Below are positions 5,223 to 64,000 of a stretch of 64,000 nucleotides of DNA, in pieces. Under the pieces are notes generated by a model that had not been told where the DNA came from, ran no database searches, and saw nothing but the letters and a program-made list of their open reading frames with translations. The position numbers and the translations under genes were made by a program. Origin of the DNA: Xanthomonas sp. 3793 (GTDB lineage: Bacteria; Pseudomonadota; Gammaproteobacteria; Xanthomonadales; Xanthomonadaceae); the NCBI RefSeq assembly GCF_024806835.1, contig NZ_JANTYU010000004.1, forward strand, positions 496,001 to 560,000, in the 5' to 3' direction. Every line of letters begins with the position of its first letter. Positions within the stretch are counted from its first letter, which is position 1.

Positions 5223-6077
5223 ATGCTCATCATCGTTGGCTTCATTGTCGTCATCGTCAGCGTCCTCGGCGGCTACGTGCTGTCGCACGGCAAGCTGGGC
5301 GCGTTGTGGCAGCCGTACGAGCTGATGATCATCGGTGGCGCGGCATTCGGTGCGTTCCTGGTCAGTACCCCGGGCAAGATCGTCAAAGAGACCTTCAGCA
5401 GCATCATGGGCGTGTTCAAGGGCCCGCAGTACAAGTCCGAGGACTACAAGGACACTCTGAGCCTGGTCTACGAACTGTTGAACAAGGCACGTCGCGACGG
5501 CTTCATGGCGCTGGAAGACCATGTCGAAAAACCCCAGGACAGCACCATTTTCGGCAACTACCCCAAGGTGGTGGCCGACCATCACCTGCTGGACTTCATC
5601 ACCGACTGCCTGCGCCTGATGATCGGCAGCAACATCGAGCCGCACGAACTGGAGCCGCTGCTCGAGCTGGAGCTGGAAAAGCATCACCACGAGGCGATGG
5701 CGCCGGCGCATGCGCTGAGCAAGGTGTCCGACGGCCTGCCCGGCTTCGGCATCGTGGCGGCGGTGCTCGGCATCGTGATCACCATGGGTTCGATCGGCGG
5801 CCCGATCGAAGAGATCGGCCACCATGTCGGCGCCGCACTGGTCGGCACCTTCCTGGGCATCCTGCTGGCGTATGGCTTCGTGGCGCCGCTGTCGGCGGCG
5901 ATGGAAGCGCGCGCCGACCAGGACGGACGCATCTACGAGGCGGTCAAGACCGCCCTGCTGGCCTGCCTGCGCGGCTACAACCCGAAGATCGCGCTGGAAT
6001 TCGCGCGCAAGACCCTGCCCTCCAACGTGCGTCCGAGCTTCGGCGATTTCGAAACGCACCTGAAGACGATCAAGTAG
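5223..6077 (+). CDS. motA: Flagellar motor stator protein MotA
   Basis: Inner-membrane stator subunit that conducts ions with MotB and turns the flagellar rotor. At 284 residues it is close to E. coli MotA (295). Membrane segments lie at about residues 1-22, 33-52, 170-192 and 200-222. The mechanistically important prolines appear in SDGLPGFG and YGFVAPLS, and the cytoplasmic loop between helices 2 and 3 carries the charged residues that contact FliG. It lies 10 bases upstream of motB and is presumably cotranscribed. No flagellar sigma-28 promoter could be identified by eye upstream. Confidence 0.97.
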   Translation: MLIIVGFIVVIVSVLGGYVLSHGKLGALWQPYELMIIGGAAFGAFLVSTPGKIVKETFSSIMGVFKGPQYKSEDYKDTLSLVYELLNKARRDGFMALEDHVEKPQDSTIFGNYPKVVADHHLLDFITDCLRLMIGSNIEPHELEPLLELELEKHHHEAMAPAHALSKVSDGLPGFGIVAAVLGIVITMGSIGGPIEEIGHHVGAALVGTFLGILLAYGFVAPLSAAMEARADQDGRIYEAVKTALLACLRGYNPKIALEFARKTLPSNVRPSFGDFETHLKTIK

Positions 6078-6087
6078 GGCCACGGTC

Positions 6088-7260
6088 ATGGCCGAGGCCA
6101 AATCCACCGTCGTCATCCGACGGGTCAAGAAGGTCCAGGGCGGCGGCCACCATGGCGGCGCATGGAAAGTGGCGTTTGCCGACTTCGTGACCGCGATGAT
6201 GGCCTTCTTCCTGGTGCTGTGGCTGATGGCTGCCACCACCAAGGAACAGCGCGCGGCGATCTCCGAATACTTCCGCAATCCCAGCCCGTTGTCCGGCAAA
6301 TCGCCGGCGCCTTCGCCCGGCATGAACGGCCCCGGGGGCGCCAGCACCTCGATGATCAAGCTCGGCGGCACCGCCGACATGGCCAAGGGACAGAAGGACG
6401 AGATGGGCCGCAAGCGCGACAACGCGGCCGATACCGACGTGGACAGCCGCGCCAAGGACAAGAAGCGCCTGGAGGCGCTGATGCAGGACCTGAAGGAAGC
6501 CATCGACAAGAGCCAGGCGCTGGAGCCGTTCAAGGACCAGCTGCTGCTCGACCTCACGCCCGATGGCCTGCGCATCCAGATCGTGGACAAGCAGAACCGC
6601 CCGATGTTCGATATCGGCCGCGATCAGCTCAAGCCGTACACGGTGGACATCCTGCGCGAGCTGTCCAGCTTCATCAATCAGGTGCCCAACCACATCAGCA
6701 TCACCGGCCACACCGACACCACCGCCTACAGCAGCGATGCTGGCTATACCAACTGGGAACTCAGCGCCGACCGCGCCAATGCCGCACGGCGTGCGCTGGT
6801 GGGGGGCGGCATGTCCGACGCCAAGGTGACGCGTGTTGTGGGCCTGTCGTCGTCGGTGCTGTTCGACAAGACCGACCCGCAGAACCCGATCAACCGCCGC
6901 ATCAGCATCGTGGTGATGACCCAGGATGCCGAACAGGCCGCGCTGGCCGGCGCCGGCCAGGGCGTGGCGCTGGGCAAGTCGGTGCACGACGCCGACACCC
7001 AGGTGCCGGACCTCAGCGCCGCTGCCACCGGCACGGCCACCGTGGGCGCGCCAGTGGCTGGCGCTGCGCCGACTGCGACGGCGACACCGGCTGCCGGGAA
7101 GGCCGCTGCGGGGACCACACCGGTACCGACCGGCACGGCCGCGGCACGCCCCGCCGCACCGCGGGTGTCCTCCAGCGCACAGGTGGCCTCGGCCACCGCA
7201 CTTGCCAAGGCGGCCGAAGCGGCCGTGGCCGCGCCGCGGGTGGCGGTAGAGGGGCAGTAA
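6088..7260 (+). CDS. motB: Flagellar motor stator protein MotB
   Basis: Partner of MotA that anchors the stator to peptidoglycan. The single membrane helix at about residues 27-48 contains the ion-binding aspartate at D32 (AFADFVTAMMAF), the same position as in E. coli. The OmpA-like peptidoglycan-binding domain spans about residues 180-285, with SITGHTDTTAY, NWELSADRAN and NRRISIVVM. Beyond it lies an unusual Ala/Thr/Pro-rich tail of about 95 residues, making the protein 390 residues against about 308 in E. coli. The tail is low complexity and probably disordered. Confidence 0.97.
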   Translation: MAEAKSTVVIRRVKKVQGGGHHGGAWKVAFADFVTAMMAFFLVLWLMAATTKEQRAAISEYFRNPSPLSGKSPAPSPGMNGPGGASTSMIKLGGTADMAKGQKDEMGRKRDNAADTDVDSRAKDKKRLEALMQDLKEAIDKSQALEPFKDQLLLDLTPDGLRIQIVDKQNRPMFDIGRDQLKPYTVDILRELSSFINQVPNHISITGHTDTTAYSSDAGYTNWELSADRANAARRALVGGGMSDAKVTRVVGLSSSVLFDKTDPQNPINRRISIVVMTQDAEQAALAGAGQGVALGKSVHDADTQVPDLSAAATGTATVGAPVAGAAPTATATPAAGKAAAGTTPVPTGTAAARPAAPRVSSSAQVASATALAKAAEAAVAAPRVAVEGQ

Positions 7261-59509: not shown

Positions 59510-60247
59510 ATGGCGAAGTCTGCTCCACGGGCGCCCCTCTCGGGCCCGGCGTTCATTCGCCTGCTCGCACGCCTCAGCGATGTCCGCGTCGCCCAGTCCA
59601 ACCATGCGCTGGCCGACCGGCTGAGCCAGTGGATCGACTGGACACGCGCGGTGGCCGTGTCCAAGGCGCTGGATGGCAAGTTGCCCGACATCGACGACCT
59701 TCCAGAACCGCGTCCGCTCGATGCCGAAGCCTGCGCCCGCGTGCGCGCCGGCCTGGCGACCAGCAGCGTGGCCGATCTGGATGCGCTGGTCGCGCGGCTG
59801 CGCAGCCAGGCAGGTGACGCCACCGACACGGATGCAGCGCCGCCGGCGCCCGACTACGCACCGTTCCGGCAGCATTACCTGGCGATGCAGCGTGCCATGC
59901 GCACTGCCACCGGCGATCTGCGCGGGCGGCTGCGCGACCTGCTGACGCTGGCGTCCGGCGACATGGCACGGCTGGCCGAAGTGGATGCAGTGATGGAGCT
60001 GACCCTGAGCCCACGCGAGCAAAGCTTGTTGAACACCGTGCCAGGCCTGCTGGGCACGCATTTCGAACGCCTGCGCGAGGCCGCGTACGCGCACGGCGCG
60101 CCAACCGAGCAGGAGATCGCGCCGCGCGCGGTGTCCGATGGTTGGCTGGATGTATTTCGCAAAGACATGCAGAGCGTGTTGCTCGCCGAACTGGATGTTC
60201 GTTTTCACCCGATCGAAGGCCTGCTTGCAGCGCTTCGTACCCGCTAA
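59510..60247 (+). CDS. DUF3348 family protein
   Basis: A 245-residue cytoplasmic, mostly helical protein. It begins MAKSAPRAPLSGPAFIRLLARL, and its middle contains a DYAPFRQHYLAMQRAM helix pair; the C-terminal domain (LDVFRKDMQSVLLAELDVRFHPIEGLLAAL) is family-typical. The DUF has no characterised role. It is the first gene of the four-gene operon DUF3348-DUF802-OmpA-DUF2894, ending 10 bases before the next. Position suggests a cytoplasmic accessory of the motor-like complex. The ATG at 59510 was chosen over a GTG/ATG four codons upstream. Confidence 0.88.
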   Translation: MAKSAPRAPLSGPAFIRLLARLSDVRVAQSNHALADRLSQWIDWTRAVAVSKALDGKLPDIDDLPEPRPLDAEACARVRAGLATSSVADLDALVARLRSQAGDATDTDAAPPAPDYAPFRQHYLAMQRAMRTATGDLRGRLRDLLTLASGDMARLAEVDAVMELTLSPREQSLLNTVPGLLGTHFERLREAAYAHGAPTEQEIAPRAVSDGWLDVFRKDMQSVLLAELDVRFHPIEGLLAALRTR

Positions 60248-60257
60248 CTGGGACGTC

Positions 60258-62915
60258 ATGTTCAAAACTCTTGTACACGTGTGTGTGTTTCTCGTCGGCC
60301 TGTTGGCGGTTTGCTGGGTCGGGTTCGGCTATCTGGGCAACAACCCGCTGGGCGCGTGCGTCGCAGCGGTGATCGGCGCGTGTTACCTCGCCGGTGCGCT
60401 GGAGCTGTATCGCTACCGCCAGGCCAGCGCCACCCTGGACAGCGCAGTGACCGGGCTCACCGCTGCGCCATCGGCGCTGGACGCGTGGCTGGAGCAGTTG
60501 CACCCGAGCCTGCGCAATGCGGTGCGTCTGCGCATCCAGGGTGCGCGTGTGGCGTTGCCGGCCCCTGTGCTGACGCCGTATCTGGTCGGTCTGCTGGTGC
60601 TGCTGGGCATGCTCGGCACCCTGCTCGGCATGATGGCCACGCTCAAGGGCACCGGGTTTGCGCTGCAAAGCGCCACCGACCTGCAGGCCATTCGCGGTTC
60701 GCTGGCCGCACCGGTGGAAGGGTTGGCATTCGCCTTCGGCACCTCCATCGCCGGCGTCGCCACCTCGGCCATGCTGGGCCTGTTGTCGGCGCTGTGCCGC
60801 CGCGAGCGGCTGCAGGCCACGCAGCGGCTGGATCTGAAGATCGCATCCGAGTTGCACACGCACTCGGATGCGCACCAACGCAGCGAGGCGTTCAAGCTGC
60901 AGCAGCAACAAAGCACATTGATGCCGGCGCTGATCGATCGCCTGCAGGCCTTGATGGGCAGCATCGAGCAGCAGAGCATCGCCGCCGACGCACGTCTGGC
61001 CACGCAGCAGGCCGAGTTCCACGCCAGGACCGAAGCGGCGTATGCGCGGCTGGCCACCTCGATGGAGCAATCGCTGCAGGCCGGCGTCGCAGAGAGTGCG
61101 CGCGCGGTTGGCGCGGCGTTGCAGCCGGCGATGGAGGCCACCATGGCCAGCATCGCGCGCGACACCGCCGCGCTGCACGCACAGCTCACCCAGGCCCTGC
61201 AGCAGCAGCTGGACGGCATCAGCAGCGGGTTCGATCGCAGTGCCAGCAGCGCCGCGCAACAATGGACCACCGCGCTCACCGCGCAGGAACACGCACAGCA
61301 GGCGCTCAGCACGCAGCTGCAAACCACGCTGGAGCAGATCGCCCAGCACACCGCTGGATTGCAGGAGCGCGTGAGCACCGCGGTGCAGCAGCAACTGCAT
61401 GGGCTCGACGCCGGCTTCAAGGACAGCGCACGCCTTGCGGCCGAGCACTGGCAGGCGGCGCTGGCCGCACAGGAGCGCGCGCAGCAGGCGCTCAGCGAGC
61501 AGATACAGGCCATGCTGGCGCAGGTCGAGCAACGCAGCAGCGCCCTGCAGGACAGCGTCGGCACCGCCGTGCAGCAGCAATTGCATGCACTGGATGAGGG
61601 CTTTGCGCGCAGCACCGCCGCCAACGCCGAGACCTGGGCATCGGTGCTTGCCGAACAACAACGCGCCACCCACTCGCTCGGCACGCAGTTGCAGGCCACG
61701 CTGGAACAGCTGGCCCAGCAGACCACCGCCTTGCAGCACGGCGTGCAAGAGGCGGTGCAACAGCAGCTGGACGGGGTGACCAGCGGATTGGAGGCCAGCA
61801 CCGCCGCCACCGCCGCCAGCTGGACCGCTGCGGTGGCCGAACAGCAACGCGCCAACCACACCCTCACCCACGACCTGCAGAACGCACTGACACAGTTCGC
61901 CAGCACCTTCGATGCGCGCTCCAACGCGCTGGTGGATGCGGTGTCCAGGCGCATGGAGCAATCCAGCAGCGAAACCGCCACTGCCTGGAGCGACGCGCTC
62001 GCACAGCAGCAACACGCCAGCGCCGCGTTGGCCACCCAGCACCAGGATGCGCTGGCCGCGGCAACCGCCAGCTTCGACACGCATGCCGCAGGCCTGGTCG
62101 ACACCCTGCAGCAATCGCATGCCGAGCTGCAGGCCGCACTGGAAGCGCGCGATGCACAGCGTCTTGCCCTGTGGAGCGAGCGCTTTGCCGCGATGAGCGC
62201 CACCTTGGCCGCGCAATGGGAACAGACCGGCGAACGCGTCACCCGGCAACAACAGGCCATCTGCGACACCCTGGCCACGACGGCCGGCGAACTGTCCACC
62301 CAGGCGCAGGCGCAGACCAGCGCCACGATTGCCGAGATCTCGCGCCTGATGCAGATCGCCTCCGAAGCTCCCAAGGCCGCGGCCGATGTGGTGGCCGAGC
62401 TGCGCCAGAACCTTTCCGAAAGCATGGTGCGCGACACCGCCATGCTGGAAGAACGCAGCCGCCTGCTGGCCACGCTGGATACCTTGCTCAACGCGGTCAA
62501 TCACGCCTCCACCGAACAACGCCAAGCCGTCGACGCACTGGTCACCACCTCGGCGGACCTGCTGCAACGTGTGGGCAGCCAGCTCACCGAACAGATCGGC
62601 AGCGAAACCGGCAAGCTCGGCGCGGTGGCCGCGCACGTCAGCGGCAGCGCGGTGGAAGTGGCCAGCCTGGGCGAAGCCTTCGGCATGGCGGTGCAGATGT
62701 TCAGCACCTCCACCGGCGAGCTCAACGAACGCCTGCAACACGTGGCCACCGCGCTGGATGCGTCGCTGGCACGCAGCGACGACCAGCTGGCGTATTACGT
62801 GGCGCAGGCGCGTGAGGTGGTCGACCTCAGCATGCTGTCGCAGAAGCAGATCATCGAAGAACTGCGTCAGCTCGATGGCCAGCGTCGCGATGCTGGCGCA
62901 GCGGAGCCGGCATGA
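60258..62915 (+). CDS. DUF802 protein, MotA/ExbB/ZorA-like motor subunit with a giant coiled-coil tail
   Basis: An 885-residue protein. Four membrane helices lie at about 5-24, 31-50, 103-128 and 152-179. The last two have the MotA/TolQ/ExbB pattern: GMLGTLLGMMATLKGTG, then APVEGLAFAFGTSIAGVATS. From 185 to the end is a Gln/Ala-rich, helical, probably coiled-coil tail of about 700 residues, including four exact 62-residue repeats at 317-564. The stop overlaps the next gene by ATGA. The family is uncharacterised; the architecture is that of the ion-driven motor ring of Zorya (ZorA) and flagellar stators, with the tail projecting into the cytoplasm. A motor role is inference. Confidence 0.88.
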   Translation: MFKTLVHVCVFLVGLLAVCWVGFGYLGNNPLGACVAAVIGACYLAGALELYRYRQASATLDSAVTGLTAAPSALDAWLEQLHPSLRNAVRLRIQGARVALPAPVLTPYLVGLLVLLGMLGTLLGMMATLKGTGFALQSATDLQAIRGSLAAPVEGLAFAFGTSIAGVATSAMLGLLSALCRRERLQATQRLDLKIASELHTHSDAHQRSEAFKLQQQQSTLMPALIDRLQALMGSIEQQSIAADARLATQQAEFHARTEAAYARLATSMEQSLQAGVAESARAVGAALQPAMEATMASIARDTAALHAQLTQALQQQLDGISSGFDRSASSAAQQWTTALTAQEHAQQALSTQLQTTLEQIAQHTAGLQERVSTAVQQQLHGLDAGFKDSARLAAEHWQAALAAQERAQQALSEQIQAMLAQVEQRSSALQDSVGTAVQQQLHALDEGFARSTAANAETWASVLAEQQRATHSLGTQLQATLEQLAQQTTALQHGVQEAVQQQLDGVTSGLEASTAATAASWTAAVAEQQRANHTLTHDLQNALTQFASTFDARSNALVDAVSRRMEQSSSETATAWSDALAQQQHASAALATQHQDALAAATASFDTHAAGLVDTLQQSHAELQAALEARDAQRLALWSERFAAMSATLAAQWEQTGERVTRQQQAICDTLATTAGELSTQAQAQTSATIAEISRLMQIASEAPKAAADVVAELRQNLSESMVRDTAMLEERSRLLATLDTLLNAVNHASTEQRQAVDALVTTSADLLQRVGSQLTEQIGSETGKLGAVAAHVSGSAVEVASLGEAFGMAVQMFSTSTGELNERLQHVATALDASLARSDDQLAYYVAQAREVVDLSMLSQKQIIEELRQLDGQRRDAGAAEPA
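61206..61949 (+). repeat. Four in-frame 186-bp tandem repeats within the DUF802 gene
   Basis: Units start at 61206, 61392, 61578 and 61764, each exactly 186 bp (62 codons). Each begins with Gln-Leu (QLDGI, QLHGL, QLHAL, QLDGV), has W at unit position 20, an AQE/AEQ-x-RA stretch at 26-30, a QLQxTLEQ-like helix at 37-44, and closes with TAVQQ or EAVQQ. The fourth is the most diverged and loses the motif at its end. Weaker, shorter relatives continue into 61950-62250. Confidence 0.9.
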
Positions 62916-63577
62916 GCGACGAGATCGAAAGCGACGGCGAATCGGGCACGCCGATCTGGGCCGCATTCGGCGACCTGATGTCAGTGCTGCTGGGCGCATT
63001 CGTGCTGATCCTGGTCGGGGTGATCGGCGTGCAGCTGCAGCTGTCCAGCCGTCTGGATCAGGAGGTCAAACAACGCCAAGCAGAGGCGCAGCGCCGCAAG
63101 ACGCTGGAACAGGCGCTGGCCGCACCGCTGGCCGCCGGCCGCGTGACGTTGGTCGATGGCCGCATCGGCATTCGCGGCAACGTGCTGTTTGCATTCAATT
63201 CCGATGAGCTGCAGCCGGAAGGACGCGAGGTGTTGAAGTCGCTCGCTGCGCCTTTGGCGCAGTACCTGAGCGCACGCGAGGAACTGCTGATGGTCAGCGG
63301 GTTTACCGACGACCGCCCGGTGCTGGGCGGCAACCGCCGTTATGCCGACAACTGGGAGCTGTCCGCGCAGCGCGCGCTCACCGTGACCCGCGCGCTGATC
63401 GCCGAGGGCGTGCCGGCCGCATCGGTGTTCGCTGCGGCGTTCGGCTCGCAGCAACCGGTGGATTCCAACGCTGACGAGGCGCGCCGCGCCAAGAATCGCC
63501 GGGTGGAAATCGCACCGATCGCACGCCCGTCCGGCGCGCAGCGCACGGCCCCCGCGCAGGCCGCCGCCACACGATGA
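62912..63577 (+). CDS. OmpA/MotB/ZorB-like partner subunit
   Basis: A 221-residue protein with one membrane helix at about 19-42 that begins with an aspartate, D21, in AAFGDLMSVLLGAF. This is equivalent in placement to the ion-binding Asp32 of MotB (AFADFVTAMMAF). The OmpA-like peptidoglycan-binding domain spans about 85-205: FAFNSDELQPEG, SGFTDDRP, NWELSAQRALTV and KNRRVEI. An Ala/Pro-rich tail follows. ATGA overlaps join it to both neighbouring genes. It probably anchors the DUF802 ring to the cell wall and carries the ion path; this is inferred from architecture. Confidence 0.92.
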   Translation: MSDEIESDGESGTPIWAAFGDLMSVLLGAFVLILVGVIGVQLQLSSRLDQEVKQRQAEAQRRKTLEQALAAPLAAGRVTLVDGRIGIRGNVLFAFNSDELQPEGREVLKSLAAPLAQYLSAREELLMVSGFTDDRPVLGGNRRYADNWELSAQRALTVTRALIAEGVPAASVFAAAFGSQQPVDSNADEARRAKNRRVEIAPIARPSGAQRTAPAQAAATR

Positions 63578-64000
63578 GCACCCCGGCTTCCGCACGCGCG
63601 CGCCTGGAACGTTGGCGCAGCCAGGGCGCCGACCGGCTGGACCCGGTGCGCTTCCATCTGATGCAGACGCTGGCGACGCGTGCCGAAACGCAGGCCGACG
63701 CGGTACGTGCGGTGCTGGAAGAAAAGCTTGCCGGCCTGGTCGATGCGTATGCGGCCACCATCAAGGAAACTGCGCGTGGTACGCGTGCCGGCGTCGCATC
63801 GCCCGCAGTGCAGCGCAGCCCGCTCGGCGCCCTGACCGATCAGCTGGCAGGCCACGCCGCGCTGATGGAAGTGGACAGCAGAAAGACCGCGGCCGCCGAT
63901 ACGCAGCTGTTTCCGGAGCTGCCGGCGCTTGACGATTTTCGTCGTACCTGGACCACCGTACGCACCGCCAGCCAGGTGCGTCAGTCGCTGCAGGACGCGC
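63574..64000 (+). CDS. DUF2894 family protein (partial, runs off the window)
   Basis: 142 complete codons are visible from the ATG at 63574 and the frame stays open to the last base. It begins MSTPASARARLERWRSQGAD, continues RLDPVRFHLMQTLATRA, and has a helical LEEKLAGLVDAYAATIK segment and LPALDDFRRTWTTVR, features of the DUF2894 family. No membrane helix. The start overlaps the OmpA-like gene by four bases, so it is translationally coupled and likely belongs to the same complex as a cytoplasmic component. Confidence 0.85.
   Translation, partial: MSTPASARARLERWRSQGADRLDPVRFHLMQTLATRAETQADAVRAVLEEKLAGLVDAYAATIKETARGTRAGVASPAVQRSPLGALTDQLAGHAALMEVDSRKTAAADTQLFPELPALDDFRRTWTTVRTASQVRQSLQDA

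Follow-up and report, generated by a model that had tools for sequence, protein, structure and literature searches.

A Zorya type III operon in Xanthomonas: core-like inheritance and a ZorA rod of variable length with an apparently kept helical phase

The window analysed here is a stretch of 64,000 nucleotides from Xanthomonas sp. 3793 (contig NZ_JANTYU010000004.1), and at its right end we could confirm a four-gene operon, placed as first described, with the order DUF3348, zorA, zorB and DUF2894 and all genes on the + strand (Table 1). The tight spacing noticed before is borne out by the coordinates: with its ATG at 60258 zorA follows the DUF3348 gene after a gap of 10 bases (alternative in-frame starts lie at 60255 and 60225), and zorA/zorB as well as zorB/DUF2894 overlap by an ATGA, at 62912-62915 and 63574-63577, respectively. 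The end of the DUF2894 gene is given in window numbering but was taken from the host contig, where reading on past base 64000, as the earlier note had proposed, completed this gene and gave the further downstream genes described below. An identical order of all four genes was found in 61/61 loci of a first locus set (the own locus included), and the complete gene set is present at 76 of the best 80 of at least 528 ZorB matches, the available sequence of the remaining four starting inside ZorA. As the order is repeated in the first set and the gene set in the second, the grouping exceeds what chance would give.

Table 1: Features of the operon in window numbering.
Feature	Position	Strand	Size	Evidence or description
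DUF3348 gene	59510-60247	+	245 aa	Pfam PF11828 1.9e-84; PADLOC ZorG3 293 bits
zorA type III (DUF802 tail)	60258-62915	+	885 aa from ATG 60258	PADLOC ZorA3 1178 bits; Pfam DUF802 5.4e-43, five stretches
ZorA membrane segments 3 and 4	60546-60797	+		Hydrophobicity scan
ZorA motif GMLGT	60606-60620	+		
ZorA motif FGTSIAG	60735-60755	+		
ZorA tail repeats	61263-62018	+		Trp-led units spaced by 62 residues over three steps and by 55 in the last
ZorA C-terminal part, LEER to SDDQLAYY	62445-62798	+		
zorB type III	62912-63577	+	221 aa	One membrane helix and OmpA/MotB-type domain; PADLOC ZorB3 380 bits
ZorB Asp21 codon	62972-62974	+		By homology to D24 of ZorB-I and D21 of ZorB-II, the residue that carries the ion
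DUF2894 gene	63574-64000 in window, continues to 64230	+	218 aa	Pfam PF11445 4.9e-61 (full gene); PADLOC ZorF3 128 bits (in-window part only)

All four genes are matched by the PADLOC models for Zorya type III (Table 1), with 1178 bits for ZorA against 33 bits for the best type I/II model and 380 against 71 bits for ZorB. The DUF3348 and DUF2894 genes flank the zor pair, just as the definition of Zorya III requires (Pfam, PADLOC), and we regard it as virtually certain that the locus is a Zorya type III operon. The kinship with ZorA5-ZorB2 that the earlier note had seen in the MotA/MotB-like pair and the long tail is therefore right, as the ZorA3 and ZorB3 matches show. Its term "undescribed" has to be given up because of the type III matches and because the system has been in print since 2021, when the PADLOC paper named Zorya III with the components ZorA, ZorB, ZorF and ZorG (PMC8565338). 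The system is thus already known, and the observation was correct but wrongly called new. The same paper gives a count of 6,401 gene pairs with DUF3348 and DUF2894 genes on their flanks (the sentence prints zorBC) and describes reduced phage plaquing in E. coli BL21-AI carrying the type III operon of Stenotrophomonas nitritireducens, the only operon for which we found published anti-phage activity of this type. Compared with the description there (PMC8565338) the locus has the same four genes, and no difference in gene content was found. The labels ZorF and ZorG are swapped between sources, DUF3348 being ZorF in PMC8565338 and ZorG in PADLOC-DB 2.0.0 and DUF2894 the reverse. A paper from 2025 names Xanthomonas as one of the genera with a higher frequency of type III (PMC11890865).

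A hydrophobicity scan identified one membrane segment in ZorB and four in ZorA, the fourth being merged from two overlapping matches, and about 700 residues of ZorA lie C-terminal to the last of them. Together with the motif positions this agrees with the anatomy of four membrane helices, a motif pair and a tail of about 700 residues that had been claimed for ZorA. The membrane aspartate proposed for the OmpA-like partner is found as well: Asp21 of ZorB is aligned in 18/18 and present in 141/141 rows, which come from the 61 loci and the best 80 of at least 528 matches; the genome of the window is among them, and some genomes are represented in both locus sets. Of these rows 137 were recognised by pattern and four, in which the Asp is kept after a one-residue deletion, by eye. 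The claimed cell-wall-binding domain is present as a domain of the OmpA/MotB type (Pfam OmpA 5.7e-20; match to 8vvn_B), which is sequence-level evidence for putative wall binding, and a MotB_plug match to ZorB reached 12.7 bits and stays below the 24-bit cut-off (Pfam). The ZorB profile matches 8vvn_B, the solved ZorB of Zorya I, over positions 8-208 (36.8 bits) and 8qyd_F, which we take to be Zorya I too, over positions 8-200; several MotB, PomB and OmpA domains outscore the Zorya I ZorB on this profile (best 72.6 vs 36.8 bits for 8vvn_B). As phmmer gave no match to ZorA in the PDB at E 0.01, the 5:2 stoichiometry can only be inferred. By homology to the solved type I and II complexes, ZorA5B2 very probably forms an ion-driven motor of the MotAB kind in the inner membrane.

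Zorya III probably resembles the flagellar stator MotAB/PomAB in being driven by ions and in having its B subunit anchored to the wall; it differs by its rod-like long tail and by having two partner genes. A separate motA/motB pair is located in the window at 5223-6077 and 6088-7260; it was recognised by eye from the translations and is the true motAB that had been placed far to the left of the operon. With Zorya I and II (ZorA5B2 complexes 8VVN and 8VVI; PMC11890865) the locus shares the MotAB-like membrane part, the ZorB aspartate, the OmpA-type domain and the long cytoplasmic tail, and the aspartate, the wall-binding domain and the tail are reported to be all needed for defence in these two types (PMC11890865). 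The type III tail differs in its DUF802 repeats and its widely variable length, whereas component size is described as well conserved within types I and II (PMC11890865). A further difference is that the type III locus has no ZorC/ZorD or ZorE neighbour, and neither partner gene is matched by the models for ZorC, ZorD or ZorE (Pfam, PADLOC). Searching with PF15611, presumably the ZorC domain, gave no match in the 35 Xanthomonas genomes (0/35), but the control genomes were also without a match.

In a comparison of ZorA with itself, peaks appear at lags of 62, 124 and 186 residues. We measured the tail from GMLGT to SDDQLAYY, both used as patterns with allowed variants, in 133 rows, as four of the 141 rows are truncated at the sequence end and another four of the remaining 137 have no second anchor. 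Its length ranges from 401 to 884 residues with 27 distinct values among the 61 loci and the best 80 of at least 528 matches; the spacing between LEER and SDDQLAYY is 110 residues in 94/94 rows in which both anchors were found. The 27 lengths share one helical phase and agree best at 3.635 residues (R = 0.79). Widening the range to 2.2-12 residues leaves this the best period, and 0/5000 random length sets were equally good over the scan from 3.4 to 3.8. A second anchor pair gave p = 5e-4 (122 rows) and a third only p = 0.057 (100 rows), and no phase signal was detected for the lengths of DUF3348 and DUF2894 (p 0.59-0.97), controls in which some genes have a wrong start and one is cut. The 27 lengths are not independent, many of them differing by 62 or 29 residues, and repeat duplication therefore explains part of the phase pattern; coiled-coil stability alone may also explain it. 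The ZorA rod varies in length, yet apparently with its helical phase kept. In the literature searched, which lies mostly outside subscription journals, we found no report of a conserved tail phase or of a core status of Zorya III.

To describe the distribution of the operon we used DUF3348, which is present as a single copy in 35/35 Xanthomonas genomes (the own included) and in 20/20 genomes of one related genus, and which was found in 58/61 Stenotrophomonas genomes, four of these showing the match in two adjoining pieces. It was detected in 45/149 genomes of a family-wide and 8/369 of a class-wide sample. To be found in nearly every Xanthomonas is not typical of an accessory defence system. 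However, HSDR_N of type I restriction, taken as a control, occurs in 32/35 Xanthomonas genomes as well (0-3 copies whose scores and positions differ widely), and a high presence rate alone is therefore no proof of core status. For Xylella only ZorA and ZorD homologues have been described, and the system was judged non-functional (PMC9148166). A tblastn search with the DUF3348 protein of the window found 27 of 72,556 plasmid records (10 from Caballeronia, 8 Paraburkholderia, 4 Burkholderia, 2 Cupriavidus and 1 each from Variovorax, Azoarcus and Aquabacterium), with 20 of the 27 predicted as non-mobilizable and 7 as mobilizable; the 20 plasmids for which a size is listed have 0.59-3.2 Mb. The same search, which could miss distant relatives, gave 0 matches in 50,697 phage records. 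With these plasmid sizes and the phage result a phage-borne or small-plasmid element was judged unlikely.

On the host contig the operon is followed by two DUF3526 genes (one also an ABC-2 permease), an ABC ATPase, an M14 peptidase, a LysR regulator and an L-PSP gene, and a molybdopterin-binding dehydrogenase subunit is encoded upstream on the opposite strand. The ABC block is common to 20/23 Xanthomonas loci, two more have the LysR and L-PSP genes, and one has neither within reach. The earlier note had set a mobile or defence island against a fixed core location, and within Xanthomonas the operon is not patchy and comes out as core-like in its presence (35/35) and its downstream flank (22/23), but not on the upstream side, which varies and where the dehydrogenase is found in only 4/23 loci; across the family its occurrence is patchy. 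Other sampled genera have mostly different neighbours. A flank survey of 121 unverified ORFs, from 34 of 45 planned loci and nearly all outside Xanthomonas, gave 93 Pfam families (25 of them listed, so that integrases may be among the others) and, with PADLOC at 1e-10, 11 families that were each matched in one member and some of which are presumably helicase models.

A quick tree was reconstructed from DUF3348, ZorB and the N-terminal 300 residues of ZorA, with DUF2894 left out, for 83 rows (the best 80 of at least 528 ZorB matches minus five incomplete loci, to which the window and seven further loci were added); at least two of the ZorA sequences in it have a wrong start, and the program issued a long-branch warning. 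The window and 12 named Xanthomonas rows form one clade, and 21 Burkholderiaceae rows form another that is nested inside Dyella and Rhodanobacter rows; we interpret this nesting as a single old transfer with vertical descent thereafter. Among the matches listed, ZorB from Burkholderiaceae (75-80%) and ZorB from Stenotrophomonas are about equally close to that of the window. Stenotrophomonas is split over more than one clade, as are some other genera, and the agreement of tree and taxonomy is therefore broad and not exact. Among Xanthomonas the operon is under purifying selection, the median dN/dS against the genes of the window being 0.07 for ZorB, 0.19 for ZorA, 0.23 for DUF3348 and 0.24 for DUF2894 (21/22 comparisons each). 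Median synonymous distances are 0.45-0.60 for the operon genes and 0.54-0.72 for five flanking genes, which were found in 3 to 19 of 22 loci. For Xanthomonas and two related genera, inheritance of the operon closely resembles that of a core gene.

The earlier note regarded the locus as a third type of stator-like motor outside Zorya, and the Pfam result on ZorA, with DUF802 as the only family above cut-off and no MotA-type match, would fit such a view; we nevertheless rejected it and consider it scarcely credible, as the type III models match all four genes and Zorya III has been classified in print since 2021 (PMC8565338). The position of the two flanking genes as cytoplasmic partners had been assigned correctly, and the hydrophobicity scan gave no membrane segment in either protein. 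One of them could be the killing effector, a nuclease like ZorE of type II that is recruited by the rod, and the model for types I and II indeed proposes recruitment of a nuclease (PMC11890865). We think this unlikely, because neither protein has a nuclease domain (Pfam) or a solved relative by sequence (best E 0.66 for DUF3348 and 0.079 for DUF2894), both are predicted to be helical without strands, and the all-helical AF2 model of DUF3348 (mean pLDDT 82) has no fold match in the PDB at E 0.001. The helical model of DUF2894 is poor (pLDDT 65, pTM 0.36) and may therefore conceal an enzyme fold; it is that of the X. pisi protein, as the proteins from X. pisi and X. floridensis were used for the PDB sequence search and the model work because the gene of the window is cut at 64000. 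We would tentatively see DUF3348 and DUF2894 as possible adaptors or regulators that bind the tip of the rod, and not as nucleases.

It is also conceivable that in Xanthomonas, Stenotrophomonas and relatives the operon serves chiefly as a core machine of the cell envelope that senses wall tension or damage, its anti-phage effect being a by-product that shows on plasmid expression in E. coli. The presence of DUF3348 almost throughout three genera, the tree that broadly tracks taxonomy, the common downstream neighbourhood, the purifying selection, the housekeeping-type flanks of the window and the empty search of phage records are all in line with this idea, and the conserved location in Xanthomonas weakens a purely accessory-defence reading. 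It does not cancel the published phage result, however, as a type III operon does protect E. coli (PMC8565338), and the distribution of the three Zorya types has been called typical of anti-phage systems (PMC11890865). Moreover, 104/149 genomes of the family have no match, hence the operon is dispensable in many relatives, 7/27 plasmid records are predicted to be mobilizable, and with HSDR_N nearly as common in Xanthomonas presence alone proves little. A mainly envelope-related function thus appears doubtful to us.

We are confident in the overall explanation of a Zorya III system with a wall-anchored motor, a rod, helical partners and core-like inheritance. ZorB would hold the peptidoglycan and thereby anchor the ZorA5B2 ion motor to the wall, and phage damage or wall pressure might open an ion path at Asp21, as suggested by types I and II. 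ZorA could then rotate or twist relative to the wall, and this motion would pass down the helical rod with its variable length and apparently kept phase, the link to signalling being one that we infer. Finally, the conserved end of the rod would act on DUF3348 and DUF2894, which are likeliest to be adaptors or tip-binding regulators. By homology to types I and II it is likely that a wall-anchored ZorA5B2 motor signals via the rod to two helical partners.

In summary, the finding as first stated is ordinary because Zorya III was already known, and core-like inheritance and a phase-kept rod are the additions to the known system that are worth following. The first of them means that a defence system can resemble the core genome across whole genera. 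Both might be joined in a core envelope motor of Xanthomonas, Stenotrophomonas and relatives that is passed on vertically, with selection on the angle of the rod tip to the wall-anchored motor and with a tail length that may change by whole helical turns only, a rather improbable reading at present; if it were true, the rod would be the carrier of a phase-dependent rotary or twisting signal and not a mere tether. The apparently kept helical phase of the ZorA rod also gives an easy way to test for signalling by rotation or twist in Zorya.
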